Positions 1,924 through 20,628 of a stretch of DNA of 25,903 nt are shown here, one piece after another. Below the pieces are notes generated by a model. The model was not told the DNA's origin. It did not search any database and saw only the letters and a program-made list of their open reading frames with translations. The DNA comes from a virus, in the IMG/VR virus record IMGVR_UViG_3300027977_002751, positions 1 to 25,903 of that record, one strand, 5' to 3'. Numbering within the stretch: position 1 is the first letter of the stretch; each line of letters starts with the position of its first letter. Position numbers and translations under genes: made by a program.

Positions 1924-3918
1924 ATGGCGCTCAAGAATTTTACACAATTTAGCCCCCAAATAGTATTATCCGCAACTGACTTTTTGGTGGGATATCGCAA
2001 TCTGGATGAAATACGCACAGATCTGGATAGCATGTCGTTGGGTGTTAGTGCTCTGCTCATCAGCAAGGGCTTTCTGCCTGGAACAACATTAGGAAGCATA
2101 AAAAGAAAAAGTTTTCAATATACCATTGTTCCGGGCAACAATCTGAACGCAGTTAGTGGCACAGACGACTACGGAAACATTTTAAGTTATACAGTCAATC
2201 AAGTGGAAGTGTATCGGAACGGTTCTCATTTGGTTAATAGCCAAGATTATTTGGCCAATAACAGCACACAGATACTGAATCTGAGCACACTTAATTTTGG
2301 AGATATCGTGCAAGTGGTGGGACTTAGTGGAATTGGCGTAACACAACAAAATACGTTGAGCGGATTTTTAGGCAATTTGGTTCAAACAAATTTCCGTTAT
2401 AGTGTGGCTAGTAGCAACACTATCACACCCGGCAGCACTGTTATCAGTGGATCTGATGATTATGGAGCTGTTCTTAGTTTCAAAACAAATGCTTTTGAAG
2501 TTTATCTGAACGGATCTCATTTGGTGCGAGATTATGATTATACTTCCTATAATCTAGGAACAAGTTTCACATTAGCATCTCCTGTATCAAATGGTGACAG
2601 TGTGAACGTGGTTTCATTAAGTTCGGTCACAACATCACAATTGAGTTCAATCAGTGCATTTAGTGGAATCAGCAAAATACTAGCAGGAGATAGAACCGCA
2701 ATTTCCTCTTCTACTGGAAATGTCACAGTATCTTCACAAACATGTATTAGTGATATTCTTGTTCCAAGTTGGACAAATGCTAATCATATTTCACAATTCA
2801 GCTTGCTACAAGATTATCTATCAGCAGTTGCTGCATCTAATACAAGTGCGGCCAGTGCAGTTTATATATCATATTTTGGAGCAAGTACTTATGGCGGAGG
2901 ATCGTCCCAAGTCACAGCTCAGGGAATATTAGGTCCGAATGGAAAGATATATTGCATGTCAGGGGATACAGATCAACCTGTTTTGGTTATCAATCCAGAT
3001 GATTTGACCATATCTAGCATTGCTCCAATAGGGGGAACACTTAACCGGAGAGAAAATGCGACAGGGTCGCTTGCCCCAAATGGAAAAATATATGAAGTTC
3101 CTGGAGGTATGTTTGCGGGTGTTATAAATAATACTTTTCGTTTCATAGATCCAAGCACAGGAACACGATCTGTATTTGCAACCGTGCCAGCCGTTAATCC
3201 CGGGGTAGACACTCCTTTAAGTAACTCCGTTGTGGCACCTGACGGAAAAATACATATGATAGCTAGTGAAATTAGTTTGAATTTTGTTGTGGATCCGTAT
3301 AGCAATGCAATTTCCAGTTATGTTTTGAATAGTGTACCTCCTCGTGTTAGAGGTATTCTTGCTCCTAATGGAAAAATTTACTGTTTGCCTACAACATATT
3401 CCACAATCTTTATTGTGGATCCTTCCAACAATGCAGTATCATCAATAAGCACATTTGTGCAAGGTGGAAATGGTATTGATAATCTTAGTCAAATTTCTTG
3501 TTTGGCACCCAATGGAAATATATATTTTGGATTGGGTGAAGGAAGTAAACGATTGTATGTTTTGGATCCTTCAAACAATTCGGTAACATCTTTTGGAACT
3601 TTTGCAGATAGTTATGGGAGTTCTACATTATGTCCCAATGGAAAAATTTATTGTTTACCAACAGCAAGTGTTAACACTACTTCGTTGCTTTGTATCGACC
3701 CTCAAACAAACACAACTACTGAAATAGGTGGTTTTACTTTTGTAGCTACTCTATATAGTGGCATATTTGCATCTAATTCTAAACAAACAAGACTTATAAT
3801 AAATAATAGCGGATATTTTAACACACCTTCAAACGCACATATATGTGTTGATATACCCACAAACAATAATTGGAACATGAATGTTTCCACCAATCCTCTG
3901 TTTAACAATCAAGACTAA
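1924..3918 (+). CDS. Tail fibre 1 (type A), C-terminal seven-repeat propeller
   Basis: A 664-residue putative tail fibre or receptor-binding protein. Residues 1-50 form a conserved N-terminal end (MALKNFTQFS) shared with the fibres at 3971 and 6432, probably the virion-attachment part. Two copies of a repeat module follow, at about 62-136 and 156-235, each with a V(E)VYxNGSHLV core then a D-Y pair, a pattern common in phage tail fibres. A linker around VPSWTNANHIS leads to seven repeats from about residue 330, each centred on a PNGKIY-like strand and a (I/V)(D/N)P loop; the seventh is degenerate (ASNSKQTRL). This predicts a seven-bladed beta-propeller. The C-terminal cap reads NNNWNMNVSTNPLFNNQD. 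The final residues differ from the other fibres, and a relic of an alternative 3' end lies just downstream. The function as a fibre is inferred from the modules and the neighbouring chaperone-like gene. Confidence 0.8.
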   Translation: MALKNFTQFSPQIVLSATDFLVGYRNLDEIRTDLDSMSLGVSALLISKGFLPGTTLGSIKRKSFQYTIVPGNNLNAVSGTDDYGNILSYTVNQVEVYRNGSHLVNSQDYLANNSTQILNLSTLNFGDIVQVVGLSGIGVTQQNTLSGFLGNLVQTNFRYSVASSNTITPGSTVISGSDDYGAVLSFKTNAFEVYLNGSHLVRDYDYTSYNLGTSFTLASPVSNGDSVNVVSLSSVTTSQLSSISAFSGISKILAGDRTAISSSTGNVTVSSQTCISDILVPSWTNANHISQFSLLQDYLSAVAASNTSAASAVYISYFGASTYGGGSSQVTAQGILGPNGKIYCMSGDTDQPVLVINPDDLTISSIAPIGGTLNRRENATGSLAPNGKIYEVPGGMFAGVINNTFRFIDPSTGTRSVFATVPAVNPGVDTPLSNSVVAPDGKIHMIASEISLNFVVDPYSNAISSYVLNSVPPRVRGILAPNGKIYCLPTTYSTIFIVDPSNNAVSSISTFVQGGNGIDNLSQISCLAPNGNIYFGLGEGSKRLYVLDPSNNSVTSFGTFADSYGSSTLCPNGKIYCLPTASVNTTSLLCIDPQTNTTTEIGGFTFVATLYSGIFASNSKQTRLIINNSGYFNTPSNAHICVDIPTNNNWNMNVSTNPLFNNQD

Positions 3919-3970: not shown

Positions 3971-5944
3971 ATGGCACTTAAAAATTTCACACAATTTACT
4001 CCTCAAACGGTTCTTAGCGGGACTGATAACTTTGTGGGTTATAGAGTTTTAGACGAAATTCGTTCAGATCTGAGCAGCGTTACAGATGCCATCAGTGGTT
4101 TGCTTCTTAGCAAAGGTTTTGTTCCGGGCAGCAGCGAGGGTGTTGTAAGAAAAGTAAGTTTTCGATACACTTTAACATCGGGCAGTTCACTTAATGCAGT
4201 TAGCGGTGCAGATGATTATGGATTAGTGCTTAGTTACACACCCACTCAGGTCGAGGTTTATCGGAACGGAGCATATTTGGCAGAATCATTGGATTTTGTT
4301 GCAAATAACGGAACTCAAATTACCAATCTGAGCACAATGAATGTGGGAGATATTGTGGAAGTGGTTGCACTCAGTTCCACACGTTTGACTTTGGCTAGTG
4401 GGTTTGGCACCGGAGACGTATCAAAAATAAATTATCGTTATAGTGTGGCCACAGGCAACACGATTGAACCAGGCGACACACTGATCACAGGAAATGATGA
4501 TTTTGGATTCGGCTTAAGTTTCGTGTCGCCCAATCTGGATGTTTACTTGAACGGTTCACATTTGGTTCGAGATATGGATTATGGTTCGTATGGGAGTGGA
4601 AATTCATTAATACTAAATGATGCAGTTGCAGATGGTGACACTGTGGAAGTGGTCAGTCTCAGTGCAAACAATCTGACACAAGTTGTGGGCATCACCGCAT
4701 ATAAAGGAATTCAACAAATACAAGCAGGCAAAGACTTTTTCATTTCTAATATTACTGGAACAGGAATTGTCACACTTTCAGCAAAACCCGGAATCAGAGA
4801 TATTAAAGTTCCTGATTGGACCACGGGTGCACATATAACTAATTTTAGCACTTTGCAACAATATCTTAGTGCGGTAGCACAAAGCAATAGATTCACTCAA
4901 CCTAGTGCAGTTTACATGGAAATTTTCGCCACAAATGCATATCCTGTTGAAGCAGGAACACAGAATTGGGAAGGGGGAGTTTTACATCCCAATGGAAAAA
5001 TATATTGTTTTCCGGAAAATGCATCAGTAATTCTTATTATTGATCCTGATTCCAATACAACAACAACAACAGGGGCAGGATCCTTTGGAACAGTTGGAAA
5101 CAAGTATCAAGGTAGCATATTAGCTCCAAATGGAAAAATATATGGAGTTCCTTGTGGAAGTGGTACAACATCTAGACCTCAAACAGTTTTTCAATTATTG
5201 GATCCGTCAAATAATACAATAACAGCTTATGCAAGCATAGCTTCTCTTCCTCCAACAAATGCATTTCAGGGAGGTGTATGTGCTCCTAATGGAAAATTAT
5301 ATTTAACTCCTTCAACCAGTTCAATTTTTTATTTTATTGATCCTTCTAACAATACTGTCAGTGCATTTGCCACATATGTTACAAATTCCTCAATTTTTGG
5401 ACAAAATTATAGTTTTGGATGTGTTGGTCCTAACGGAAAAATATATATATCACCTACAGGAGCAACCGTGGGGCGCATTATTGATCCAGATACTAATACA
5501 ATAACAACTTTTGGAATAACAGGACAGAGTCTACCTAATTTGGGTGCAGGAATTGTTGCTCCTAATGGAAAAATTTATTTCGTACCAAATCATAGTATAG
5601 GATATATTTTAGATCCTTTTAATAACAATACAATTTCAACATATTCATGTGCTCCAGTTATAACAGGAGCTACTTCCTCTTTCGGAGGAAGGTTGGCACC
5701 AAATGGTAAAATATATTTTGCATCATGGGCCGGAACATTTTTTGGCATGCTTGATCCAGACAACAATACTGTAACACAATTAGGAACAGTAGCTTCAGTA
5801 GGCTATCTTGGCATGGTTCTTACACCGAAAGGAAAACTTGTTCTTATACCAGCAGCAGCAACAAGCATTACAGCTTATAATTTAAATTTAAATAATAATT
5901 TTAACATAAACGTTTGCACCAACCCAATGTTTAACAAAATTTAA
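3971..5944 (+). CDS. Tail fibre 2 (type A), C-terminal seven-repeat propeller
   Basis: A 657-residue paralogue of the fibre at 1924 with the same architecture: an N-terminal end starting MALKNFTQFT, two YxNG repeat modules, a linker with VPDWTTGAHIT, and seven propeller-type repeats from about residue 330 (cores include HPNGKIYCFP, APNGKIYGVP, APNGKLYLTP, GPNGKIYISP, APNGKIYFVP and APNGKIYFAS, with TPKGKLVLIP last). It ends with NVCTNPMFNKI. The linker closely resembles that of the type B fibre at 8426, although the N-terminal halves of the two proteins are unrelated, so the propeller and linker appear to move as a unit. It probably forms a receptor-binding fibre or fibre tip. A role as a lactonase-type enzyme is not supported by any visible active-site pattern. 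Confidence 0.8.
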   Translation: MALKNFTQFTPQTVLSGTDNFVGYRVLDEIRSDLSSVTDAISGLLLSKGFVPGSSEGVVRKVSFRYTLTSGSSLNAVSGADDYGLVLSYTPTQVEVYRNGAYLAESLDFVANNGTQITNLSTMNVGDIVEVVALSSTRLTLASGFGTGDVSKINYRYSVATGNTIEPGDTLITGNDDFGFGLSFVSPNLDVYLNGSHLVRDMDYGSYGSGNSLILNDAVADGDTVEVVSLSANNLTQVVGITAYKGIQQIQAGKDFFISNITGTGIVTLSAKPGIRDIKVPDWTTGAHITNFSTLQQYLSAVAQSNRFTQPSAVYMEIFATNAYPVEAGTQNWEGGVLHPNGKIYCFPENASVILIIDPDSNTTTTTGAGSFGTVGNKYQGSILAPNGKIYGVPCGSGTTSRPQTVFQLLDPSNNTITAYASIASLPPTNAFQGGVCAPNGKLYLTPSTSSIFYFIDPSNNTVSAFATYVTNSSIFGQNYSFGCVGPNGKIYISPTGATVGRIIDPDTNTITTFGITGQSLPNLGAGIVAPNGKIYFVPNHSIGYILDPFNNNTISTYSCAPVITGATSSFGGRLAPNGKIYFASWAGTFFGMLDPDNNTVTQLGTVASVGYLGMVLTPKGKLVLIPAAATSITAYNLNLNNNFNINVCTNPMFNKI

Positions 5945-5990: not shown

Positions 5991-6368
5991 ATGACAACTT
6001 ATATTGATTACGGAAGCTATTATGAAACGGGTGATGTGGTGGTTTGCCGCATGGGTAAAAATCAACCTTATAATCCTTTTGGCGGAGCGCAGATCACATG
6101 GGAACAGTATGTAAATCAACAGGTTGCAGCAGGAACAGCTCAAGTTGTGCAACTAATTAATGATCCCACTCGTCTTGCCGCTTATTGGAGCGATGTGATT
6201 ACCAAACGAAATGGTCTTCTTGTGGATAGCGATTGGACACAACTGCGAGATGTAACTCTTTCTGACAACACACAATGGACAACTTATCGTCAGCAACTTC
6301 GCGATATTCCGCAAACATATGCAAGTGATCCTCGCTTGATTGTTTGGCCCACTGCTCCAACAGCTTAA
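5991..6368 (+). CDS. Tail fibre assembly chaperone-like protein
   Basis: A 125-residue protein. Its C-terminal half carries the pattern typical of phage tail assembly chaperone proteins: an arginine/asparagine-containing helix, then LLVDSDWTQLRDVTLSDN, then a WTTYRQQLRDIP segment and a proline-rich end (IVWPTAPTA). Proteins with this R...LL..SDWTQ...W..YRQ.LRD.P signature are usually encoded next to tail fibre genes and help the fibres fold or attach. Its position between the second and third type A fibres fits. The N-terminal part (MTTYIDYGSYYETGDVVV) is not familiar. A single such gene may serve the whole array. Confidence is high for the family and moderate for the exact client. Confidence 0.78.
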   Translation: MTTYIDYGSYYETGDVVVCRMGKNQPYNPFGGAQITWEQYVNQQVAAGTAQVVQLINDPTRLAAYWSDVITKRNGLLVDSDWTQLRDVTLSDNTQWTTYRQQLRDIPQTYASDPRLIVWPTAPTA

Positions 6369-6431: not shown

Positions 6432-8378
6432 ATGGCACTCAAGAATTTTACACAATTTACACCCCAAACAGTCCTATCCGCAACTGACTTTTTGGTGGGA
6501 TATCGCAATCTGGATGAAATACGCACTGATCTAAGCAGTTTGACCGATGCTATTAGTGGTTTGCTTCTTAGCAAAGGATTCACTCCAGGTGGTACTTTTG
6601 GTAGTGTTACTCGTTTGGGTTATCGTTTCACGATTGCTCCAGGCAATAATCTGAACGCAGTCAGTGGTACTGATGATAACGGACAATTTTTATTGTATAA
6701 TCCTGGGGCTGTGGAAGTTTATCGAAACGGTTCCCATCTTGTTGAAACATTAGATTATCAGGCCACTAACGGAACCCAGATACTTAATTTAAGCACAATG
6801 AATGTGGGTGACATTGTGGAAATATCATCGTTGAGCGGAATACCTCTCACAATTATACCTGCAATTACTGGAGCGGGAAATGCTCTTGTTGCTTCGTTTC
6901 GTTACACCGTAAACAGTGGCAACACAATTGTTCCTAACGCAACATTGATTAGTGGTGCCGATGATTATAATGCAGTGCTTAATTTCATTCCAGCAAATAT
7001 TGATGTTTATGTGAACGGATCGCATCTGATCCGTGATATTGATTATGGTTTGTATAGCAGCGGAAGTTCTTTCACACTTAATGATGCTGTTACCGGAGGT
7101 GACGTGATAGACGTGATAACTTTGAGCGGAACCAGTCTAACTCCTACCATTGGAATCAGCGCATATTCTAATGTGACAAATGTTAACCGAGGAAAAAATA
7201 TATTAGTTTCACAATCATCTGGAGTTGTTACAATCAGCGCCAAATCCGACATTTGCAGTGAAATTAGTTTGGATGATATTCCCGTTCCAGGTTGGACAGA
7301 TGGTCAACACATTTCTCGATTCAGCTTGCTTCAAGATTATCTATCAGCAGTTGCCACAACAAATACAAGTCCTGCCAGCAATGTTTATGTTGAATATTTT
7401 GGATCTTCCTCTGGGCTAGCGGCGCATGTAAATTTAGTTAATCTACCCAATGGTAAAATTTATGCAATGCCCCATCAAACTAGTTTTTTAAGAATTATAG
7501 ATCCAAATACAAATACTGTTAGTGTTGTGGCCACAATAACTAATCCAACTTCAGTTAATATTACACATGGAGGTGTTTTAGGTTCTAACGGAAAAGTTTA
7601 CACTATTCCTGCCGATGATACTGTTTTGAGAAAAATAGATCCAAGCAATAATACTATATCTATTATAGCAACTCTTGGCACCAGCTCGTACCAAACCTCT
7701 AGTCAAGGAGGTGTATTGGGACCTAATGGAAAAATTTATATTATCCCACTGATCAGCACTTTTCTTAGAATGATTGATCCAAATAATGATACCGTAACTG
7801 TTATTGCTACTATAACTCCTGGTACCCAATATCAAAGTGCCAATTGTTTGGCTCCCAACGGAAAAATATATTTGTTTCCTGGTACTACTAACGGAACCAT
7901 GATACGAGTAATCGATCCCTCTAATAATCAGATAAGCAGTCTGGGATTTGTGTGTCCTAAAACGTCAAGTGCAATTTTGGCTCCAAATGGAAAAATTTAT
8001 CTGGCAGCAAGTTTGGCCAATGCACGTCCTCTGGTATTTGATCCTCAAACCGAAACCATAAGCACGTTTGCGGTTATTTCGTTTAGCACCAACATAGTTC
8101 CAAATCAAGCTTGTTTGCTTCCTAATGGAAAAATATTTTCTTATAATGGATTTGGTGGTAATTCTATGATTATGATTTTAGATCCAGATACAAATACGGC
8201 CACAACTTTTTCAACTGCACCTTATAATAGTATTGATTCATATGGTTTAATTGCTGGACCCAACGGAAATGTATATTTGGCTCCTTATGGTTCTACTAAT
8301 TTTGTATCTTTTAATTTTTTAAACAACAATAATTGGAATATTAATGTTGCAACAAATCCTTTCTTTAACAAAACTTAA
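6432..8378 (+). CDS. Tail fibre 3 (type A), C-terminal seven-repeat propeller
   Basis: A 648-residue paralogue with the type A plan: conserved N-terminus, two YRNGSHLV / YVNGSHLI repeat modules, a linker with VPGWTDGQHIS, and seven repeats from about residue 335 (cores such as LPNGKIYAMP, GPNGKIYIIP, APNGKIYLFP and APNGKIYLAA). It ends NVATNPFFNKT. It is a visible mosaic. Bases 6475-6526 are identical to 1967-2018 of the first fibre, whereas the codons just after, encoding TDAISGLLLSKGF, match the second fibre. The stretch around FSLLQDYLSAVA again follows the first fibre. This points to gene conversion within the array. Role as above: inferred receptor-binding fibre. Confidence 0.8.
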   Translation: MALKNFTQFTPQTVLSATDFLVGYRNLDEIRTDLSSLTDAISGLLLSKGFTPGGTFGSVTRLGYRFTIAPGNNLNAVSGTDDNGQFLLYNPGAVEVYRNGSHLVETLDYQATNGTQILNLSTMNVGDIVEISSLSGIPLTIIPAITGAGNALVASFRYTVNSGNTIVPNATLISGADDYNAVLNFIPANIDVYVNGSHLIRDIDYGLYSSGSSFTLNDAVTGGDVIDVITLSGTSLTPTIGISAYSNVTNVNRGKNILVSQSSGVVTISAKSDICSEISLDDIPVPGWTDGQHISRFSLLQDYLSAVATTNTSPASNVYVEYFGSSSGLAAHVNLVNLPNGKIYAMPHQTSFLRIIDPNTNTVSVVATITNPTSVNITHGGVLGSNGKVYTIPADDTVLRKIDPSNNTISIIATLGTSSYQTSSQGGVLGPNGKIYIIPLISTFLRMIDPNNDTVTVIATITPGTQYQSANCLAPNGKIYLFPGTTNGTMIRVIDPSNNQISSLGFVCPKTSSAILAPNGKIYLAASLANARPLVFDPQTETISTFAVISFSTNIVPNQACLLPNGKIFSYNGFGGNSMIMILDPDTNTATTFSTAPYNSIDSYGLIAGPNGNVYLAPYGSTNFVSFNFLNNNNWNINVATNPFFNKT

Positions 8379-8425: not shown

Positions 8426-9712
8426 ATGCCGACGCGAGCACTATCTGGAGCCCGAATGGTACGTGATTTGGGTGTAACCAATGAATTTTTAGCAGCCAAT
8501 GTTGCATCTGCCACCAAAATACAACAGGTACCTAGTGACAGGTTTATAAGCAGGGGACTTGCTAACACTAGTACAGGCAATGTTCAAGGAGAACAGCCGT
8601 GGTATGATGTGCAGGTGCCAGATTGGACTACGGGTGCACACATAACCAACTCGAGCACTTTGCAACGTTATCTGAGCAGTGTGGCGGAGACCAATAGTCT
8701 TGTTCCGGCCAGCGATGGTTTTGTTGAAAGGTTTGGAACTTTTCCAGGAAGTGCTGGTTTTTTTGGAGGTGTATTAGCTCCTAATGGAAAAATATATTGT
8801 GTTCCTCACGGAACAACTTATTGTGCAGTCATCGATCCTATTAATAATTCTGTATCATCAATAGGTAATGGTTTGTTTCCAATGGTAAATCCTGCTCTTG
8901 GTTCATATGCAGGAGGTGTTTTGGCTGCAAATGGAAAAATATATCTTGTTCCAAGCAATCAAACTACTATGCGGGTAATTGATCCGTCTAGTAACACAGT
9001 TTCGAGTATTAATAATATAAAAACAGCTTATGATTCAGGTGTGTATCATCCTAATGGAAAAATTTATATGAGTCCATGGAGCACAGCAACTCAATTTTTG
9101 ATTGTTGATACCTTTAATAATGATTCCATAAGCTATACTTCAAATATACCAGTTAGAAACGGTAGAACTGGAACGAGTGTTGCTCCCAATGGTTTTATAT
9201 ATTCGAATGGGTCAACCATTATTTCAAAAATAGATCCATCTAATGACACAGTTACTAATATTATTAGTATTACACAGGGGGGAATGAGTGACACCCTTGT
9301 TCTGGCACCAAATGGAAAATTTTATAATTATAATTATGCCAGAACATGTATTACTGTGTTAGATCCTTCGAATGATACATTAATTACCTTTCAAACACCC
9401 GATCCAAGCATATTATCAGACGGATATGTTTTAGCTCCCAACGGAAAAATATATTTCGTACCGAACAGAGGATTACACAATCAAACTGTCATGACATTTA
9501 TTGATCCAAATAATAATACTTTAGGAACTTGCGTAAATCTTAGCAATCTTACATTGGGAACGGAGGCATATGAAGGAGGAATTGTGGCACCTAATGGGAA
9601 AATGTATTTTATTCCTTTTGCAGCAACCAGTGTTTTGTGTTTTAATTTTTTAAACAATAACAATTGGAACATAAATATATGCACCAATCCAATGTTTAAT
9701 AAGGGAATTTAA
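8426..9712 (+). CDS. Tail fibre 4 (type B, short N-terminus), seven-repeat propeller
   Basis: A 428-residue protein with a different N-terminal end from type A. Residues 1-45 (MPTRALSGARMVRDLGVTNE...KIQQVPSDRFISRG) follow a pattern common in phage fibres: a G-V-T segment, a K-I segment, then F(I/L)xR and a GTG or TGN turn. The linker VPDWTTGAHIT resembles that of the type A fibre at 3971. Seven propeller-type repeats start near residue 113 (APNGKIYCVP first, APNGKMYFIP last), and the cap reads NNNWNINICTNPMFNKGI. The protein is essentially a type A fibre without the two YxNG modules and with another attachment end, so it may join a different virion site or form a shorter fibre. The start is supported by the TAAATA motif six bases upstream. 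Confidence 0.8.
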   Translation: MPTRALSGARMVRDLGVTNEFLAANVASATKIQQVPSDRFISRGLANTSTGNVQGEQPWYDVQVPDWTTGAHITNSSTLQRYLSSVAETNSLVPASDGFVERFGTFPGSAGFFGGVLAPNGKIYCVPHGTTYCAVIDPINNSVSSIGNGLFPMVNPALGSYAGGVLAANGKIYLVPSNQTTMRVIDPSSNTVSSINNIKTAYDSGVYHPNGKIYMSPWSTATQFLIVDTFNNDSISYTSNIPVRNGRTGTSVAPNGFIYSNGSTIISKIDPSNDTVTNIISITQGGMSDTLVLAPNGKFYNYNYARTCITVLDPSNDTLITFQTPDPSILSDGYVLAPNGKIYFVPNRGLHNQTVMTFIDPNNNTLGTCVNLSNLTLGTEAYEGGIVAPNGKMYFIPFAATSVLCFNFLNNNNWNINICTNPMFNKGI

Positions 9713-9720: not shown

Positions 9721-11013
9721 ATGAGCTTACCACAAGATGCAGCAAAGATGGCGCGAGATGGGGGAATACAAACCCCCAAACTCGCCCCTAATGCTTTCAC
9801 CACGGACAAAATTTTTCAAATAGGGCAAGGAGAATTTATAGGCCGGGACAATCTGCAAAGTGGAAATGGAAATGTAGGTGCCACTCAAAGCTATCCTGAT
9901 ATTAGTCTCACCAGCGCACTGAGCGCACCTTTCAATGCCACCACAGCATGGAGGAGTTTGAGTGCTTACCTGAATCAAGTTAAAAATACAAACACAAGTT
10001 CATCTTTTTATCTTGAAAAATTTGGTAGTTTTCCGGGAACAGGGGCATATGCAACCGCAGTTGTGGGTCCAAACGGATTGATTTACATGCCTGCCAACAA
10101 CAATAGTGTAGGGAGAATTATCAATCCTATTAATAATACCGTAACAACTTATGGAAGCTTTTTTCCATCACCAAACGGAGCAATTCATGGAGGAGCGCTT
10201 ACACCTAATGGATTAATTTATTGTACTGCCTACAACCAATCTACAGCATCCATCACCAACCCATTCAACAACACAACCACAACATTTGGAACTTTCCCCG
10301 GAACGTCAAGTGGCTGGGGAGCAGGTGCAGTGTTGGCACCTAATGGAAAAGTATATATGATTCCCTTCCTAGGAACAGTTTTTGCCGTGGTGGATCCTTT
10401 GGCCGCTAATCCTACAAGTATTCAATTTTTCGGGACCAACAATCAAAATTGTTTAGCAGGCACACTCGCACCCAACGGAAAAATTTATTGTGGCGTAAGC
10501 AGTCCTTACACGTATGGTATTATTATAGATCCCGCTACAAATACTTTATCATCATACGGACCCATTCCCAGCCAAAGTTATGCTGGTGGATCAGTCTTAG
10601 CACCTTCTGGAATAATATACATGATTCCAGTCGGATCCGCAGGCAACACTGTTGTTGTGGTTATTGATCCTTCAACAAACAGTGTTGTTAAAACATTTTC
10701 CGGTGTAACAGGAAATGGAGCATCTCCATACGTTGGAAGTTGTATTGATCAATTCGGAAGAATATTTTTAGCTCCTTATGATTCTACCACAGGATTGGTA
10801 ATTGACACGAATAATGACAGCATCCAAACATACGGTAATTCTTCATTTTTCCCCGGAAGTCAAGCCTATGAAGGTGCTATTCTAGCACCAAATGGAAAAG
10901 TATATTTTGTACCTTATAGTGCAACTAGCGGATTGTGCGTAAATGGGTTGAGCAATAATATTTGGAATTTAAATGCCACTATAAACCCAAGTTTTAATAG
11001 AACAAATAGTTAA
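9721..11013 (+). CDS. Tail fibre 5 (type B), seven-repeat propeller
   Basis: A 430-residue type B fibre. The N-terminal pattern is MSLPQDAAKMARDGGIQTPK, then a TTDKI segment and FIGRDN with a GNGNVG turn. A serine/asparagine-rich linker (ALSAPFNATTAWRSLSAY) is the most divergent in the array. Seven repeats begin near residue 114 (GPNGLIYMPA, TPNGLIYCTA, APNGKVYMIP, APNGKIYCGV, APSGIIYMIP, DQFGRIFLAP, APNGKVYFVP). The cap reads NNIWNLNATINPSFNRTNS, differing from the CTNP form of its neighbours. Only eight bases separate it from the preceding gene. It is inferred to be a receptor-binding protein. The high content of Asn, Ser and Thr would also make it a plausible glycosylation target. Confidence 0.78.
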   Translation: MSLPQDAAKMARDGGIQTPKLAPNAFTTDKIFQIGQGEFIGRDNLQSGNGNVGATQSYPDISLTSALSAPFNATTAWRSLSAYLNQVKNTNTSSSFYLEKFGSFPGTGAYATAVVGPNGLIYMPANNNSVGRIINPINNTVTTYGSFFPSPNGAIHGGALTPNGLIYCTAYNQSTASITNPFNNTTTTFGTFPGTSSGWGAGAVLAPNGKVYMIPFLGTVFAVVDPLAANPTSIQFFGTNNQNCLAGTLAPNGKIYCGVSSPYTYGIIIDPATNTLSSYGPIPSQSYAGGSVLAPSGIIYMIPVGSAGNTVVVVIDPSTNSVVKTFSGVTGNGASPYVGSCIDQFGRIFLAPYDSTTGLVIDTNNDSIQTYGNSSFFPGSQAYEGAILAPNGKVYFVPYSATSGLCVNGLSNNIWNLNATINPSFNRTNS

Positions 11014-11024: not shown

Positions 11025-12299
11025 ATGCCAACTCCTGCATTATCCGCCGCCAAGATGAGAAGAGATTTGGGTGTAACCACCCTCAAATTGGCGAATAATA
11101 GTGTCACAACCGATAAGATTCAGCAACTGGAAGCTAGTAAATTTCTGGGTCGCACCAGCAGCGGCACAGGCAATCCTGAACAAATCAATCAGTTTTTGCA
11201 CATGCGAGTGCCTGGATGGACAGATGGAGGAATATATACAAATATTTCTGCAGTTACCGCTCACGCTCAAGGATTGGCTTTTAGCAACAAAAACATAAGC
11301 ATAAGTGCTGCCACATTTGAAGTTTTTGGATCTGGTGCTTTTCCCGGAACAAATGCATATACTGGAGGCACGATTGCTCCCAATGGAAAAATATATTTTA
11401 CTCCTTATACTGCCACAGTTGGAGTAATTTTAAATCCTGTAGATAATAGTCTAGCAACTTTCGGACCCATACCTGCCAACGCAAGTGGAAAATATCAAGG
11501 AAGTGTGTTGGCTCCTAATGGAAAAATTTATCTAATAGGGGATAACAATGCTTTTGTAACAGTTGTAGACCCAAGCACAAATACAGTTGCAAACATTGCT
11601 GCTCCGGGGGGAAATGACAAAACCGCAGGAGGTGCATTAGGTTCAAGCGGAAAGATATATTGTTTTCCTGCAAATATTAATAATTTTATTTTTGTAGTTA
11701 ATCCCAATACTGATACAATTTCAAGCATTTCTCTACCATCAGTAGGAGGATATGGTAAAGCAATAACATTACAAAATGGAAAAGTACTTTGCAATCCTAT
11801 TGCAGGATTAGGAATGACCTTGTTGCTAGTCGTGGATCCTTCCAATGATAGTGTCACTAGTTATGCAATAAGTGACGCATCAATACAAACTGGGGGATTC
11901 GTGCCAGAACAGGCACATAATGGTAAAATATTATTAATTCCCGCTGGTAGTACTAATTTGATAGGTGTCATCGATCCCAACACTTATGCAATAAGCACCT
12001 ATTCAAGTGGAGGATTAAACGGTTGCCAATATCCTACAAAACTAGCCAATGGAAAAATATTCTCAACTAGCGGAAGTCAGACAGTAATAGCGTGGATTGA
12101 TCCAGATGATTTATCTGTAACAACACTAAGAGTTCCTAGTGTGGGAGGTTCTGCACCATATGGATTTCATATAAATCATCCCAATGGAAAGGTATATTTT
12201 GTTCCAAGTAATGCATCAAGTGGTTTGGTTATGAATCCTGGATTTAACAATAATTTTAACATAAATCTTTGTACCAGTCCTCTTTTGAACAACGCCTAA
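11025..12299 (+). CDS. Tail fibre 6 (type B), seven-repeat propeller
   Basis: A 424-residue type B fibre, last of the array. The N-terminus (MPTPALSAAKMRRDLGVTTL) closely follows that of the fibre at 8426, with TTDKIQQLEASKFLGRTSSG showing the classic fibre turn. The linker has VPGWTDGG but then diverges. Seven repeats begin near residue 115; the middle ones are more worn (GSSGKIYCFP, LQNGKVLCNP, AHNGKILLIP, LANGKIFSTS). The cap reads NNNFNINLCTSPLLNNA. Its stop codon overlaps the stop of the convergent glycosyltransferase gene, with no terminator between them, so transcripts from the two strands may run into each other. Confidence 0.78.
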   Translation: MPTPALSAAKMRRDLGVTTLKLANNSVTTDKIQQLEASKFLGRTSSGTGNPEQINQFLHMRVPGWTDGGIYTNISAVTAHAQGLAFSNKNISISAATFEVFGSGAFPGTNAYTGGTIAPNGKIYFTPYTATVGVILNPVDNSLATFGPIPANASGKYQGSVLAPNGKIYLIGDNNAFVTVVDPSTNTVANIAAPGGNDKTAGGALGSSGKIYCFPANINNFIFVVNPNTDTISSISLPSVGGYGKAITLQNGKVLCNPIAGLGMTLLLVVDPSNDSVTSYAISDASIQTGGFVPEQAHNGKILLIPAGSTNLIGVIDPNTYAISTYSSGGLNGCQYPTKLANGKIFSTSGSQTVIAWIDPDDLSVTTLRVPSVGGSAPYGFHINHPNGKVYFVPSNASSGLVMNPGFNNNFNINLCTSPLLNNA

Positions 12300-13747
12300 T
12301 TGTTCTTAAGCAAAGCCACATAAATTCCATTCCGCCAAGCTTCTTTGCTTCGTGGATATAGAATTTTTTCATAAATTATCTCAAAACCCCCCTCAGCTAT
12401 TCCTTCCATGGTTCCAAACACCACATCCATGCTGTTAGAGTAGTCATCACAATAATATATAAAATATTCTTTCATGTATTTCTTATAATGTGTAAGAGCC
12501 ATTTTTTGAGCTTCCCTTGAATGGCAACCATCATAAAAATACACATCAAATTTTTCATTTAAATGATCCAATATACCCTTGGAAAAACTGTCATTATCAA
12601 CAATAATACTGGGTTTGTTTGCACTCTTTAATTTTTGTAAAAATTCTTCCTTGCCACCATATTCACTCCAATTGTCCACACCCACATAAAGATTTGGAGT
12701 ATTCTTCCACAATCCTGCAATAAACGTTGCACCTTTATAAACACCAACCTCCAGATAATTGCATTTGTATAAACTTGCAAGATTATTGGTCAAATGTTTT
12801 GTGGCAGAACAGGTCATGCCATCCACTTTAAGATCAATATATTCACCATCCAGTTTGGAACTTCCAAAATCAGCGTTTTTAATGCTGTATAGCATGTGTT
12901 GCAAAAGATAGTATGGGTGATTGGTTTTCAGTGAAATTTCAACATCATTTCCTTCAATAAGGTTTTTCAATTTATCCTTGTTTTCCAATACATATTTGGG
13001 AAAATTGTCATTTAATTCAACTTTTTCTATAATGTATCCCATCCGTCCAAATATATCTTTGCCTTGTTTTATCTTTTCCTTGATATCATCCTCTGTGAAA
13101 ACGATACCAGAATCACGATATTCACTATGAGCAAAGTTTTGTATTTTTTTCAAAACATTTTTGGGTCCGCCCATGCTGGTAAAATGCCAGCCTGCATCAA
13201 GTATGCGCGGAAGACTTGTGGATCTTATGTTTCTGTAATGTTGCAGATCGTTTTTTGTTTTGTATTGACTGTATTTTATGGCAACTGTGCTGTCGTTATG
13301 CAGCTGATTTTCCGGACTGATGACATGGTTATGAAAAGACCCGCTATACATGCTGTAACAAAGTGTCACTGGAAATTGATTCACATCTCTTGTTTTTAAT
13401 TGTTTCAGTGTATTTTTACTGGGAATTTCATCCAAATCAGAAAGCAAAAGAATATCCGCATCATCTAAATTTAAAGGTATTTTTTCACTTAATGCACGAC
13501 GGTGATCATTTTCAATGCTCCAACTATCTGTATGTTTTACATTGTCAAAAATGACTAAATCTATCTTGTGTAAAAATTTTCTAAACCGTTCCCTGTTATT
13601 TGAAAAATAAAGAGGTTTGGGTTCGTTGTTGTGCGACATTGTACTTTCACAAATAACGAATCTGTCAACAACACTATTCAATTCATTCAACCGGATTTCC
13701 AACAGATCCAGTTCGTTATTAAAAGTAAATAAATCGTAAATTTTCAT
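12296..13747 (-). CDS. GT17-like glycosyltransferase fused to a methyltransferase
   Basis: A 483-residue two-domain protein. Residues 1-270 resemble glycosyltransferase family 17 (beta-1,4-N-acetylglucosaminyltransferase-like): MKIYDLFTFNNELDLLEIRL, then VICEST, KPLYF, and the nucleotide-sugar/metal site SDLDEIP at 103-109, then a GWHFTSMGG segment. Residues from about 325 form a class I SAM-dependent methyltransferase-like domain with motif I YLEVGVYKGATF (331-342), an acidic strand end GVDNW, and YFYDGCH. The fusion suggests that a transferred sugar, or the acceptor, is methylated. It is the last gene of a four-gene minus-strand operon and overlaps the preceding one by four bases (ATGA). 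The acceptor is unknown. The protein has no membrane segment, so it acts in the cytoplasm. Confidence 0.8.
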   Translation of the reverse strand: MKIYDLFTFNNELDLLEIRLNELNSVVDRFVICESTMSHNNEPKPLYFSNNRERFRKFLHKIDLVIFDNVKHTDSWSIENDHRRALSEKIPLNLDDADILLLSDLDEIPSKNTLKQLKTRDVNQFPVTLCYSMYSGSFHNHVISPENQLHNDSTVAIKYSQYKTKNDLQHYRNIRSTSLPRILDAGWHFTSMGGPKNVLKKIQNFAHSEYRDSGIVFTEDDIKEKIKQGKDIFGRMGYIIEKVELNDNFPKYVLENKDKLKNLIEGNDVEISLKTNHPYYLLQHMLYSIKNADFGSSKLDGEYIDLKVDGMTCSATKHLTNNLASLYKCNYLEVGVYKGATFIAGLWKNTPNLYVGVDNWSEYGGKEEFLQKLKSANKPSIIVDNDSFSKGILDHLNEKFDVYFYDGCHSREAQKMALTHYKKYMKEYFIYYCDDYSNSMDVVFGTMEGIAEGGFEIIYEKILYPRSKEAWRNGIYVALLKNN

Positions 13748-15144
13748 TTTTCTAAAATAAGCAAGCCATTATTTTTAGGTGTATAATAACTTATTTTCCA
13801 TTCAGGATAGTCTATTAAAAATTCCATAATAGCAGGAATTAGTCCCAAATCTTGATTATCTTCTCCTCTTTGACCAAATGAAAATACATCATGAAAAGCC
13901 AGATATTTTTTGGCTTTATTTGCATGCAATTTCAGTTCCTGTTTGAGTTGTGTGTATGTGTGCCAAGTGTCTATGAATAGAAAATCATATTCATCAATCT
14001 GTGTTTGGAGAACATCTTGTACAATATATTCATAATCCAATCCCTCTTTTTTTGCATATTGTTTATGTTTTTCAAGATCTTGTGAATATTCAATATCATA
14101 TGAAACCAATTTTTTGGGACGAGCATTCAAAAATGACCATGTTGAAATGCCTTTTCTAACACCCATTTCACAAATAGTATCGCACTTTTTTGCATAATTT
14201 TCTAATATATGCAGGTGTTCATTTATATCACTAGGAGTTTTGCAGTTTTTTAGGTGATATTCATTTATGGTTTCCGGCATTTTTAAATTTGTTTGTAAAA
14301 TATTTTTAACTGCGTTCACTGTTCTTTCCAATGAGTAGATACTTCGGTAAGTTTCCTGGATTTTTTTATTATCAATATGTTTACTTTTTTCAAAAGCTTC
14401 AGCTATGCTCATTTCATCCTTGAAAAGGAAAAGTTCATCAGGAAGATCACTAAATCCGATAAGTTCCTTGGTGCTTCGTTCCATATACACAGGAATGCCT
14501 GTATCCAATGCTTTGCATACAGCATAACAATTGATTCCTACATTTTTATTGTGAACAAGAAGAGAAGTATAAGGAAGCAAATCAATATCCCGAGCAAAAC
14601 CATCCGGAGCTAATTGAGATCCCACTATTTTCACATCATAACCATTATGTTTCAGATACATGAGTTCCCCAGTTTCTTCAACAAGAGCAGGAAGTGACAC
14701 TATTTGTGTTATATATTTTTTTTCTTTATGTTTGGTCTGGTGTGGCACCCAATTGGGACAAAATTGAAATCCGAAAGTTTCAGCATTTGGATGGTTACAT
14801 GTTTTAAGAATATCCAAATGACCAAATGCTTTTAATTCAGCTTGCATTTGGCAATCCCACCACGTTTTTTCAGCAAAAAGATCGTTAGGAATGATAGACA
14901 CATATTTGTCATATCCATTCCAATCATTGCTAAAATTTATATTTTTAAAATCAGGATAAACAATTTCTGGATCAAAAGATAAATTCGCAATTACAAATTT
15001 GTTTTTTCTTATGCCTCCTGGTGGAAATCCAAGATGTTTGACCAATTCTTCACTGGCCACATCAACTTGGATACCAAGCTCATGAAATGCCTTCCATAGA
15101 TATAGAAGACAATCTTGATGATGATTAAACATCAAGACGCGCAT
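13744..15144 (-). CDS. GT-B-like glycosyltransferase fused to a methyltransferase
   Basis: A 466-residue protein, apparently two domains. The N-terminal 280 residues look like a GT-B (GT4-type) glycosyltransferase: MRVLMFNHHQD start, and a C-terminal Rossmann-like half ending in NVGINCYAVCKALDTGIPVY, the usual donor-binding region. Residues from about 305 form a SAM-dependent methyltransferase-like domain with motif I ICEMGVRKGIST (324-335), a YDIEYS acidic strand end, and FLFIDTWHTY near 394-403, similar to Methyltransf_24-type proteins. It overlaps both operon neighbours, by 13 bases upstream and 4 bases downstream, which implies translational coupling. A GGAGG lies 18 bases before the ATG, too far for normal use. 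The glycosyltransferase half is the less certain assignment. Confidence 0.72.
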   Translation of the reverse strand: MRVLMFNHHQDCLLYLWKAFHELGIQVDVASEELVKHLGFPPGGIRKNKFVIANLSFDPEIVYPDFKNINFSNDWNGYDKYVSIIPNDLFAEKTWWDCQMQAELKAFGHLDILKTCNHPNAETFGFQFCPNWVPHQTKHKEKKYITQIVSLPALVEETGELMYLKHNGYDVKIVGSQLAPDGFARDIDLLPYTSLLVHNKNVGINCYAVCKALDTGIPVYMERSTKELIGFSDLPDELFLFKDEMSIAEAFEKSKHIDNKKIQETYRSIYSLERTVNAVKNILQTNLKMPETINEYHLKNCKTPSDINEHLHILENYAKKCDTICEMGVRKGISTWSFLNARPKKLVSYDIEYSQDLEKHKQYAKKEGLDYEYIVQDVLQTQIDEYDFLFIDTWHTYTQLKQELKLHANKAKKYLAFHDVFSFGQRGEDNQDLGLIPAIMEFLIDYPEWKISYYTPKNNGLLILEK

Positions 15145-15815
15145 AAATTTTTATATAATCCTCCGGTAACCCATTTAGTTTCCCAATATTTCATATCCAA
15201 AAACATGATGTCTTCAAATTCCTCATTATGGGGCTTTTTGCTAACTCCACCATCATGTGTGCAACTTGCTTCAGCACAATACCATACTTCCCATCCCCGT
15301 GCACGGGCCGTAAAGCACCAGTCACTATCGGATCCAATTAAAAACATGTTCTCATCCATGAGTCCAATTTCTTTTACCATTTCTCGACGCACAATGAAAC
15401 ACGCCCCATTTACCCATGGAACCATACTGCTTTCGTTATGCATTCCCAAACTAACTTTTCCGGTGATATGAACGCCATAAGGATATGCCTGACTGCATCC
15501 AGCATGAACAATGGTGTCGCCATCCGATGAAATTTGTTTAACTCCAGCAATACCACATCTGGGGTGCAGATCCATGAAAAGCTCCAGATTTTCAATAAAA
15601 CGATCATGAACATAACAATCACTGTTGATGACCAGAACATATTCATAATCTTGTTCAAACATTTGAAAACGTATTCCTTGGTTGTATGCCTTGGTGAATC
15701 CAATGTTTTTCGTGCTGTTATTATGATGATAAACCTCAACACCCTTCAACAGATTTATGCATTTTTCAGTTTGTTCAGGATTCTTATAACTGGCAATCAC
15801 TGCTGATGTTTTCAT
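15132..15815 (-). CDS. GT2-family glycosyltransferase
   Basis: A 227-residue GT-A glycosyltransferase of the GT2/rhamnosyltransferase-like type. Visible: the nucleotide-binding start TSAVIASYKNPEQTEKC, a conserved GFTKAYNQGIR segment, the DxD-equivalent VLVINSDCYV (N64-S65-D66), an acceptor-side NGACFIVRREM, and a DSDWCFTARARGWEVWYC segment containing the usual catalytic acidic residues. It is short for the family but holds the full core domain. Its ATG overlaps the TGA of the upstream TPR-glycosyltransferase by four bases. It would transfer a sugar from a nucleotide-sugar donor in the cytoplasm; donor and acceptor cannot be read from the sequence. Confidence 0.85.
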   Translation of the reverse strand: MKTSAVIASYKNPEQTEKCINLLKGVEVYHHNNSTKNIGFTKAYNQGIRFQMFEQDYEYVLVINSDCYVHDRFIENLELFMDLHPRCGIAGVKQISSDGDTIVHAGCSQAYPYGVHITGKVSLGMHNESSMVPWVNGACFIVRREMVKEIGLMDENMFLIGSDSDWCFTARARGWEVWYCAEASCTHDGGVSKKPHNEEFEDIMFLDMKYWETKWVTGGLYKNLCAS

Positions 15816-17326
15816 AGTTTTTGTAACCTTTCATCTACCTGGTCAATCACGCTTTTCCAATCAAACGCTTTATTTTGACGCATTATTTCCACACTAGGAT
15901 ACCAAACCGTGGTATCACCTTCCATTCCCCACCGCCACTCTGGAAACCAAGGAAGCATAAGAATAGTGGGTACTTTCATGGCTCCAGCCAAATGTGCCTG
16001 TAATGTGTCTATGCTGATGACCAGATCCAATCCTTTTATGAATTGAGCTGTTTCATAAACATTTTTAAAATCTTTAACAGGATTGGTTATGCCCAACTTT
16101 TTGTTGTCATCTTCATATTCATCCTTGATCAATGAATACCATTCAAACTTATCATTCTTTTTAATAAGATTACGAAGCAAATCATAGTCTTTTTCAAATA
16201 TTGTGCGATATCGGTTGTATTGATGATTATTGCTTCCTGCCCAACATATTCCTATTTTTTTCTTGGATCCTTCTAGTTTTTTAGGTTCTATAATCAAATA
16301 AGGATCATCATTCATCATGTCTTCGTTGGTAAGACCAAGCCGTTGAGGAATACTCATGATGGGCATCCACACATCAAAATTTGTGGCATCACTGGCACTT
16401 TGAATAATTTCTGTTTTTTGTTTCAAGTGTAGCATCACATCATAAATTCTGGGATTGCACCAGTATTTCACATGTTTAAAATGTTTTTTCAACAGATGAA
16501 GCCAACGTGCTGCCATCACATTATCTCCTAATCCCTGTTCGGCAGCCACCAATATGGTTTTGTCTGGCATGGGTGTACCATCCCACATGGGCTTTTCTCG
16601 CAGAGGTTTTACTGCCCACACACCTTCATTTCTCACTTCATAATTTTTCCATGCTTCGGTATAATTTTTATCAAGAAATGTCATGTATGCCAAATACCAT
16701 TTTTTACTGAAAAGATCTATTTTAAGATTTTCAAAAGTCTTTTTAGCGGATATTATTTGTTTATTGAACAATTGGGCAATACCCAAAGCAATGTTACAAT
16801 GATGATTTTCCGGATCTATTTGTTTACCTCTATTCACCCACATAACAGCTTCATCATTCCGACCCATGCTGTTGCAACTGAGCGCAATTTTCCAGTAAAA
16901 GGAAACTTCTTGAGGAAATTGTTTGATAAGGTTCAGATAAGCATCATAGGCTTCTTCATACTTTGCCACATTGGTGTAAAGCTCTGCCAACATGATTTTT
17001 TGATTTGGATCTTGTGGATTATACAAATGTTTGGTAAAAATCTCTATTGCTTCTTTGTTTTTGCGTTGAAATTTGTGCAGATTGAAAAGATTATTATATA
17101 ATAATTTGTTACCAGGATCCATTTCAATAGCTTTTTTATATGTTTCTTCTGCTTTTTTGGTTTGTTCATCCTTTTCTAAAGCGTTGCCAAGAGCATTCAA
17201 ACAAAGAGCTTTATGCTCTTTTGTTTCATAAAGATCCAAACATTTTTCAAAATATTTTATGGCTTTATCAAAAATCCCGTATCCTATGAACTGCATGCCC
17301 ATGTCAAAATATTTGTCTCTATCCAT
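15812..17326 (-). CDS. TPR-repeat glycosyltransferase (GT9/OGT-like)
   Basis: A 504-residue protein with about six tetratricopeptide repeats over residues 1-210 (for example LCLNALGNALEKDEQTKKAE and a following EMDPGN turn), then a GT-B domain. The latter has EQGLGDNVMAARWL (263-276), KKIGICWAGSNNH, and the donor-binding segment SIDTLQAHLAGAMKVPT followed by PWFPEWRWG and WYPS. This is the arrangement of bacterial and phage TPR-GT9 proteins, in which the repeats bind the protein acceptor, so protein glycosylation is plausible. The frame is open to an ATG at 17362, but I chose 17326 because a TTTAAATA motif sits eight bases upstream of it, inside the longer version. It is the first gene of the four-gene overlapping operon. 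Confidence 0.82.
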   Translation of the reverse strand: MDRDKYFDMGMQFIGYGIFDKAIKYFEKCLDLYETKEHKALCLNALGNALEKDEQTKKAEETYKKAIEMDPGNKLLYNNLFNLHKFQRKNKEAIEIFTKHLYNPQDPNQKIMLAELYTNVAKYEEAYDAYLNLIKQFPQEVSFYWKIALSCNSMGRNDEAVMWVNRGKQIDPENHHCNIALGIAQLFNKQIISAKKTFENLKIDLFSKKWYLAYMTFLDKNYTEAWKNYEVRNEGVWAVKPLREKPMWDGTPMPDKTILVAAEQGLGDNVMAARWLHLLKKHFKHVKYWCNPRIYDVMLHLKQKTEIIQSASDATNFDVWMPIMSIPQRLGLTNEDMMNDDPYLIIEPKKLEGSKKKIGICWAGSNNHQYNRYRTIFEKDYDLLRNLIKKNDKFEWYSLIKDEYEDDNKKLGITNPVKDFKNVYETAQFIKGLDLVISIDTLQAHLAGAMKVPTILMLPWFPEWRWGMEGDTTVWYPSVEIMRQNKAFDWKSVIDQVDERLQKL

Positions 17327-17334
17327 AGTTCTTT

Positions 17335-17342
17335 TATTTAAA
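17335..17342 (-). promoter_or_regulatory. Late promoter-like motif TTTAAATA for the glycosyltransferase operon
   Basis: On the minus strand TTTAAATA ends eight bases before the ATG at 17326. It is the only such motif found at the head of the four overlapping genes. Confidence 0.5.
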
Positions 17343-17370
17343 CATAAGATTTGATATTTCAATATTAATG

Positions 17371-17384: not shown

Positions 17385-18353
17385 ATGATTGATGTTCATA
17401 GTTTTCTCAGCGGTCATTTATCAAAATTAAGTTACAGCAAATACAATCAAACGTATACGGCTTGCTGTCCCATATGCCGGGAAGGTGATTCTTGGCTTAA
17501 ACGCAAACGGTTTTATTTTTATACAAAAACAAACAGCTGTTATTGTTTCAATTGCGGATACAGCTCAAAATTATACAAATTATATTATGATCTGACAGGC
17601 AAGCCAATTAATGAAAAAACCTTTATAAATGATCGAATCAAACAGGAAGAACAAGAAAAAGTGATTGAACCTGAAATATTACCAAAAGATTCAATCAACA
17701 TTTTTGATACAACTCAGGTTTTTAAAAATATGAAAAATCGGTATTTTAAAGAATGTGTAAGTTATGTTTGCAGCCGTCGATTGCATTCAGCGGTAAATCG
17801 ACCCAAAAGTTTTTGGTTTTCCCCAGTAGATTATATTCATAAAAATCGGTTGATTATTCCTTTTTACGATTTGGACGGAAAGATTGTTTATTATCAAAGT
17901 CGTAAACTTCCTTCTGACAAATCAGAATTGCCCAATTATCTTTCAAAATCAGGGGGAGATAGAAGTCTTTTTAATGCAGATAAAATAACCGACTATCCAT
18001 ACGTTTTCATATTTGAAGGACCAATCGATTCATGTTTTTGTCGAAACGGCGTGGCAGTATCCGGCATCAACAAGTCTCGAAGCAGTCTTACAGATAAACA
18101 AGAATCGCAGTTGAAAAACTTTCCTTTGCATACCAAAATATGGGTTTTGGACAATCAAAACAAAGATGAAACTGCTCGCAAGAAAATGAAGCAATTGATT
18201 GAAATAAATCAAAAAGTTTTTGTTTGGCCGAAAGATTTGGATTATAAGGATCTTAACGAAATGTGTCTGGATAAGAAAATCAACGGTATTGAAACAGACT
18301 TTATATTAAAAAATACATTTAACGGACCAAAAGCCCGATTGAAAATGTGTTGA
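17385..18353 (+). CDS. DNA primase (zinc ribbon plus TOPRIM)
   Basis: A 322-residue primase of the phage gp61/DnaG-like kind, making RNA primers for lagging-strand synthesis. The N-terminal zinc ribbon has the cysteine pairs C28-x2-C31 and C54-x2-C57 (CCPIC ... CYCFNC). The central region carries RLIIPFYDLDGKIVYYQSR, typical of the catalytic core entrance. A TOPRIM domain follows, with FIFEGPIDS (near residue 209) and WVLDNQNKDETARKK as the acidic motifs. The length fits T4-like phage primases. It would work with a replicative helicase, which is not in this window. Its stop abuts the stop of the convergent gene at 18354, with no terminator. Confidence 0.88.
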   Translation: MIDVHSFLSGHLSKLSYSKYNQTYTACCPICREGDSWLKRKRFYFYTKTNSCYCFNCGYSSKLYKLYYDLTGKPINEKTFINDRIKQEEQEKVIEPEILPKDSINIFDTTQVFKNMKNRYFKECVSYVCSRRLHSAVNRPKSFWFSPVDYIHKNRLIIPFYDLDGKIVYYQSRKLPSDKSELPNYLSKSGGDRSLFNADKITDYPYVFIFEGPIDSCFCRNGVAVSGINKSRSSLTDKQESQLKNFPLHTKIWVLDNQNKDETARKKMKQLIEINQKVFVWPKDLDYKDLNEMCLDKKINGIETDFILKNTFNGPKARLKMC

Positions 18354-20024: not shown

Positions 20025-20628
20025 TCAAAATATCATTCTGGATTTGGATCTGCAAGGTCGAAATGCCCGAATTGAAATGAGCAGCGATGAATGGTATGAC
20101 GTTCAAAATATCGTTTCAAAACAATCATCCAATTCAACTTCTGGTCAAATGTTTATTCTTCCTATGATATTTCATGGTCGGGCTGCACAATTGAATTTAA
20201 ATAAAAAAGAATATAAATTTCTGCAAGAAACAATTTTAATTTCAGCTTATAATGATCCTAAAAAAACTAAAGATAAAATTACTATGGAAATGAATATTAA
20301 TAATCGTCCTGCTCGTGTTGAAATGCGTAAAGCAGAAATGGCTAGATGGTTATGCTTGATTGAATCAATCGATCTTATAGAAAAGAAGTGTTCTGAAATG
20401 AACGTGACCATGTCAGAAGATTTTTGGATTCAACCAATCGCCATGCAAAAATACATGGATAGTCGTTTTGAAACCATGATGGATGAAGTCAACCATCATG
20501 AATTTGGTATCGATACTAAATCAGCAAACATGGATATATTAAAGAAAAAACGCAATTTGGAGCGTATGGAAGAAGTGGAAACTGAAGAAGAATTTGATCC
20601 GCGTTATGTGTCAGTGTGCACATCATAA
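19975..20628 (+). CDS. Hypothetical protein with three internal repeats
   Basis: A 217-residue protein. Three related segments are visible at about residues 20-37, 60-78 and 101-118. Each has a beta-strand pair around a basic turn: LDLQGRNARIEMS, IFHGRAAQLNLNK and MNINNRPARVEMR. Such internal triplication suggests a repeated small beta domain or a pseudo-threefold assembly. The C-terminal part is helical and acidic (EEVETEEEFDP). The start chosen (19975) lies inside the previous gene; a downstream ATG at residue 35 would break the first repeat. Its end overlaps the convergent gp14-like gene by 25 bases. The function is unknown. Confidence 0.65.
   Translation: MFNNTSTIKPNNEINNNQNIILDLDLQGRNARIEMSSDEWYDVQNIVSKQSSNSTSGQMFILPMIFHGRAAQLNLNKKEYKFLQETILISAYNDPKKTKDKITMEMNINNRPARVEMRKAEMARWLCLIESIDLIEKKCSEMNVTMSEDFWIQPIAMQKYMDSRFETMMDEVNHHEFGIDTKSANMDILKKKRNLERMEEVETEEEFDPRYVSVCTS

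Follow-up and report, generated by a model that had tools for sequence, protein, structure and literature searches.

The DNA analysed here, referred to as the window, is an entire IMG/VR contig (IMGVR_UViG_3300027977_002751; 25,903 nucleotides) of a T4-like phage, with genes for a large terminase (TerL), a DNA primase, a gp14-like neck protein and tail fibres. It carries an operon of four complete minus-strand genes (17326-15812, 15815-15132, 15144-13744 and 13747-12296), with the primase on one side and an array of six fibre genes on the other. Neighbouring operon genes overlap by 4-13 bases each, and the stop of the last one overlaps the stop of the convergent last fibre gene (11025-12299) by 4 bases. 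These coordinates bear out an earlier note on this DNA, which had described four overlapping genes ending against the last fibre gene. Fibres and glycosyltransferases are found together near gp14, the arrangement that marks a host recognition cluster. An Rfam scan of the window gave no match. The features of the locus are as follows.

1924..3918, plus strand: fibre gene A (Kelch_6/DUF5074, propeller-like), with late box
3971..5944, plus strand: fibre gene B (Kelch-like, tail-fibre PHROG), with late box
5991..6368, plus strand: tail-fibre assembly chaperone (Phage_tail_APC, 58.8 bits, cut-off 26.6), with late box
6432..8378, plus strand: fibre gene C (Kelch_6, tail-fibre PHROG), with late box
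8426..9712, plus strand: fibre-like gene D, resembling the other fibres, with late box
9721..11013, plus strand: fibre-like gene E, with late box
11025..12299, plus strand: fibre-like gene F, convergent with the operon, with late box
12296..13747, minus strand: fourth enzyme, 483 aa, fusion of a GT17 glycosyltransferase with a methyltransferase domain (Glyco_transf_17 113.6 bits, cut-off 26)
12440..12754, minus strand: fourth enzyme, Methyltransf_24 domain at residues 332-436 (30.6 bits, cut-off 26.3)
13744..15144, minus strand: third enzyme, 466 aa, unclassified N-terminal region and C-terminal methyltransferase-like domain
13888..14169, minus strand: third enzyme, Methyltransf_24-type domain at residues 326-419 (23.9 bits, marginally below the cut-off of 26.3)
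15132..15815, minus strand: second enzyme, GT2-family glycosyltransferase, 227 aa (Glyco_tranf_2_3 53.8 bits, cut-off 27)
15812..17326, minus strand: first enzyme at the operon head, TPR and GT9-like glycosyltransferase, 504 aa (TPR_1 49.9 bits; Glyco_transf_9 E 0.012, under cut-off; family alignment)
17335..17342, minus strand: TTTAAATA, late-type promoter box of the operon, 9-16 nt ahead of its first ATG (17326)
17385..18353, plus strand: T4-like DNA primase (phrog_47), the other flank of the operon, without late box
20604-21374: gp14-like gene, neck protein

The first enzyme had been described as TPR-GT9-like. Its N-terminal TPRs are clear (49.9 bits against a cut-off of 27.8), whereas the Glyco_transf_9 match stays below the Pfam cut-off (E 0.012), although the C-terminal half is recognisable as a member of a phage family. 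The AlphaFold2 model of this protein (pLDDT 53, from a shallow alignment) is too poor for fold assignment. Its reading frame reaches back to a TTG at 17362, but the ATG at 17326 is the likely start, because the relative G004 aligns only from there. The GT2 and GT17 labels of the second and fourth enzymes hold well above the Pfam cut-offs (53.8 against 27 and 113.6 against 26 bits), and an acidic SDxDEIP motif is conserved in the GT17 protein. The N-terminal half of the third enzyme had been called GT-B-like by inspection only; no library supports the label and the AlphaFold2 model (pLDDT 44, again from a shallow alignment) is unusable. A bacterial source of the third enzyme was sought and none was found. 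What the description of four glycosyltransferases had missed are the C-terminal Methyltransf_24-type domains of the third and fourth proteins, the former with the conserved motifs ICEMGVRKG and FIDTWHTY. The operon probably also encodes a methyl-adding activity. Via its methyltransferase half the GT17 protein has distant cyanophage relatives, which lie among fibre-like genes in P-HM2 and about 2.6 kb before the neck genes in S-CAM4. None of the four enzymes shows a likely membrane segment (hydropathy means over 19 residues reach at most 1.04), as expected if the acceptor is a cytoplasmic protein.

The late-type promoter motif reported for the operon is well founded. All 8 relatives examined retain a box, TTTAAATA or CTTAAATA, ahead of the first enzyme. 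In the window, 13 of the 22 genes have TAAATA 5-22 nt ahead of their start codon, far beyond the chance expectation of 0.8% per gene (binomial p ~1e-22). TAAATA precedes the first operon gene, the chaperone gene and each of the six fibre genes; it is absent before the other three operon genes and before the genes for primase, TerL and the gp14-like protein. The box of operon and fibres resembles the T4 late promoter, and from it we infer late expression of the operon.

Related contigs show how stable this arrangement is. The operon lies beside the primase in eight other contigs, and two further ones carry the distal part of the locus only, with all four enzyme genes (L003) or part of the GT17 gene (L015). 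A fibre, or chaperone and fibre, faces the operon in the window and in 4/4 relatives in which the far side is visible (L003, L006/L080, L015 and L004/L081). The chaperone itself, located inside the array in the window, follows the last fibre in four relatives and there abuts the operon. A sister lineage (TerL 89% identical) is represented by five contigs that have the primase and lack the operon. In four of these five a repetitive fibre of the S74 type stands immediately upstream, at the position of the operon, and in L084 the gene is unclassified. The sister fibre is a giant protein (L046:882-3581, L048:2-2404) with CNTTG..NTAVG repeats and a Peptidase_S74-like end. On a core-gene tree (trees were built with FastTree and treekit) a single origin of the operon-bearing group is not rejected (p-AU 0.108). 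The exchange of fibre and operon therefore amounts to one or two evolutionary events, and its pattern is only weak evidence for a coupling of the two; at genus level the evidence consists of a few contigs from related groups. The earlier note had proposed comparing relatives and named an operon without propeller fibres in many of them as the outcome that speaks against virion glycosylation; in the comparison made here this outcome did not occur. No glycosyltransferase operon adjoins the second propeller array that this phage group carries, which counts against virion glycosylation.

The operon is genuine and intact and evolves under purifying selection, with dN/dS values against the window of 0.05-0.13 for the four enzymes in pairs with estimable dS. 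Synonymous divergence differs between genes. Between window and G004, dS is 0.51 and 0.63 for the last two enzymes and 1.64 for TerL; between the window and its near relative L009, it is 3.0 for the GT2 gene and 0.38-0.49 for core genes. Low dN/dS together with these dS differences therefore indicates functional enzyme genes that are exchanged between lineages by recombination, and the last two enzymes have moved between the lineages of G004 and the window. The last fibre of G004 is only 40-47% identical to that of the window, so the enzymes show no tight match to the fibre beside them. Such a mismatch is expected for enzymes that only extend a glycan, and equally if the fibre is not the acceptor. 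Amino acid composition was considered as a further argument and rejected. As had been noticed before, the window fibres are rich in Asn, Ser and Thr, which make up 28-32% of their residues and 14-23% in nearly all other proteins, but a partial tail-tube reading frame likewise reaches 28% and the S74 fibre of the operon-less sister lineage is equally rich (30.5%), so that this richness does not argue for glycosylation.

The strongest new evidence comes from other aquatic phages, in which a homologous, putative TPR/GT9-like enzyme is independently adjacent to propeller fibres or to a head gene. In S-SRM01 (MW015081) a homolog of the first enzyme (26.8% identical over 59% of the query) directly follows an RCC1-propeller gene. 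The surrounding cluster holds two further RCC1 genes and also encodes an S74 fibre, a sulfotransferase, a nucleotide-sugar epimerase and a fusion of GT2 with Methyltransf_24. The cultured phage BUCT-ZZ01 of Synechococcus elongatus PCC 7942 has a minimal version, a GT9-like homolog directly after an RCC1-propeller gene (L156:5737-7452), with an extra C-terminal region that is methyltransferase-like by eye; the enzyme is UTS52179 and its neighbouring RCC1 fibre UTS52180. AG-345-E08 encodes the homolog among RCC1-propeller genes together with genes for a 2OG-Fe(II) oxygenase, a sulfotransferase and, judged by eye, glycosyltransferase-like proteins (L155:3176-13523), and hydroxylation of fibres before glycosylation is possible there. 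The podovirus MW202512 carries the homolog 0.9 kb after the major head protein, along with an FkbM methyltransferase and another glycosyltransferase-like gene. Two weaker relatives give a less clear picture: the one in RHph_X2_30 abuts a gene for a 663-aa protein of unknown family, which is followed by endolysin and tail genes as neighbours, and the one in MW202713 lies about 3.5 kb from the terminase. A genome scan with a single TPR-glycosyltransferase protein reached three bacterial loci, in Rhodospirillales.

A profile scan of IMG/VR added 77 distant loci, at which selected neighbours of the enzyme were scanned; the unclassified loci among them include provirus flanks. All 12 loci whose enzyme is closest to that of BUCT-ZZ01 have an RCC1-type propeller upstream, immediately so in 11 (8 independent loci after removal of near-copies). 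The starting alignment already contained BUCT-ZZ01 and AG-345-E08, and this count therefore describes that subgroup and not the whole family. A fibre chaperone is confirmed just downstream in L217 and L234, and in several podovirus-like loci the head protein lies just upstream of the enzyme (confirmed for L198, L223 and L227). The reverse search, with an RCC1-fibre as query, found a GT9-like gene in 3 of 14 loci, two of them near-copies; elsewhere no GT9-like gene is present or the far side is not visible. The pairing is thus not universal.

It is already known that T4-like aquatic phages carry glycosyltransferases in their host recognition cluster, and when these lie beside fibres the usual explanation is modification of the host surface or of DNA. 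The window resembles the cluster of pelagimyophages and cyanomyophages in that a T4-like aquatic phage carries fibres and several glycosyltransferases in a variable block near gp14 (PMC7029224). BUCT-ZZ01 likewise keeps the gene order of this cluster, with gp14, a virulence-associated protein, the GT9-like gene and the RCC1-fibre. The window differs from it in having the primase and small genes between operon and gp14, and VrlC was not identified in the window or in G011. The enzymes differ as well, mostly GT8 in the published cluster (PMC7029224), and TPR-GT9, GT2, an unclassified-methyltransferase fusion and a GT17-methyltransferase protein in the window. For the first enzyme a well-characterised precedent of TPR-directed protein glycosylation is FlmG of Caulobacter, the TPR-glycosyltransferase for flagellin, whose TPR domain binds the protein acceptor (PMC7591256); this agrees with the earlier statement that such proteins bind protein acceptors elsewhere. 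The likeness is one of domain layout, with N-terminal TPRs and a C-terminal glycosyltransferase domain in one soluble protein. Unlike FlmG, the first enzyme is encoded by a phage, in an operon with further glycosyltransferases and methyltransferase domains. Glycans on capsid and tail-tube subunits have been observed in mycobacteriophages (Freeman et al. 2023, as cited in PMC12619734), where, by that account, phage-encoded glycosyltransferases are proposed to decorate virion proteins, as we propose here. In contrast to the glycans reported there, the candidate system of the window is linked to tail fibres. The S-SRM01 cluster shares with the window a TPR-glycosyltransferase in the fibre neighbourhood and a glycosyltransferase-methyltransferase fusion, but it has a different fibre family and a larger enzyme set.

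With slightly better than even confidence, we propose that the operon is a late-expressed pathway that would modify the phage's own virion proteins, most likely the propeller tail fibres, in the cytoplasm before assembly. A glycan on the fibres would most likely be small. The acceptor, the order of steps, the glycan and the benefit that we infer are as follows. The TPR half of the first enzyme would hold the acceptor protein, as FlmG does with flagellin, while the GT9-like half would add the first sugar. The chain would then be extended by the GT2, the unclassified third enzyme and the GT17, and the two methyltransferase domains may methylate or cap it. The phage might benefit by shielding or by a tuning of receptor binding. 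Virion glycosylation had been suggested in the earlier note. It gains from the fibre facing the operon in relatives and from the linkage to propeller or head genes in unrelated phages. It loses the argument from Asn, Ser and Thr, the swap with the sister lineage shrinks to one or two events, and the lack of co-divergence between the enzymes and the adjacent fibre counts against it, as does a GT9 assignment that stays below threshold with a poor structure model.

The main rival is that the enzymes alter the host lipopolysaccharide or O-chain, blocking competing phages or the sticking of released virions. O-antigen pathways typically contain GT2, GT9-like and methyltransferase enzymes. Fibres and surface-modifying genes would also swap as one host-range cassette, and the exchange of enzyme alleles is what variable glycans lead one to expect. 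Modification of the O-chain is moreover the published reading for the glycosyltransferases of the comparable pelagimyophage locus (PMC7029224). However, the operon has its late box in common with virion genes, the enzymes have no predicted membrane segment, the first one bears a TPR domain, and a position of the enzyme family after the major head protein in podovirus-like contigs is not explained in this way. A GtrA-type flippase gave no match in 11 incomplete records, which also counts against it, and we regard host-surface modification as rather unlikely.

Less probable still is that the operon acts on some other phage or host protein or on a small molecule, and lies beside fibres only because T4-like genomes tolerate insertions at this spot. 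The comparable locus of T4-like phages is indeed a hypervariable island that collects unrelated genes (PMC7029224), and the enzymes evolve independently of the adjacent fibre. Hitch-hiking does not lead one to expect that, in unrelated phages, this enzyme family repeatedly lies directly beside propeller fibres or the major head protein, and the late box common to operon and fibres also speaks against this reading. Glycosylation of phage DNA against restriction, as with the alpha- and beta-glucosyltransferases of T4, would suit a T4-like phage with enzymes predicted to be soluble. It is nevertheless unlikely, with the slightest chance of the readings considered: the box is late and not early, GT17 and GT2 are not the families of the T4 DNA-glucosyltransferases, the linkage is to fibre and head genes, and no match to a thymidylate-synthase-type hydroxymethylase was obtained in the 11 incomplete records. 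Modification of virion proteins is favoured over O-chain change and over DNA modification because of the late box, the predicted solubility, the TPR domain and the repeated adjacency to fibres or a head gene.

More tentatively, and with somewhat less than even confidence, these loci may represent a widespread phage system that has so far escaped notice. Its glycosyltransferase, TPR-guided or GT9-like, would have methyl- and sulfotransferases and perhaps hydroxylases as tailoring enzymes, and would glycosylate the beta-propeller tail fibres of myoviruses and the head proteins of podoviruses. If this is true, receptor-binding proteins of abundant aquatic phages would be glycoproteins, which bears on host range and on models of binding. 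The recurrent pairing with propeller fibres or a head gene makes virion glycosylation testable in cultured phage.

Two further observations concern the same phage group. An RmlD-like sugar reductase gene lies directly upstream of the second propeller-fibre array in L063/L064 (G014), G016, G019 and G020, and the same contigs carry a GT2-like gene between UvsX and the DnaB helicase. In L079 (IMGVR_UViG_3300014720_000060; L079:6545-9465) the terminase gene is in two pieces with an endonuclease-like reading frame between them. The N-terminal part ends in a short intein-like tail (CIAKETVLEIL...) and the C-terminal part opens with a C-intein-like stretch ending VHN|C, so that this terminase looks like a gene fractured by a split intein.
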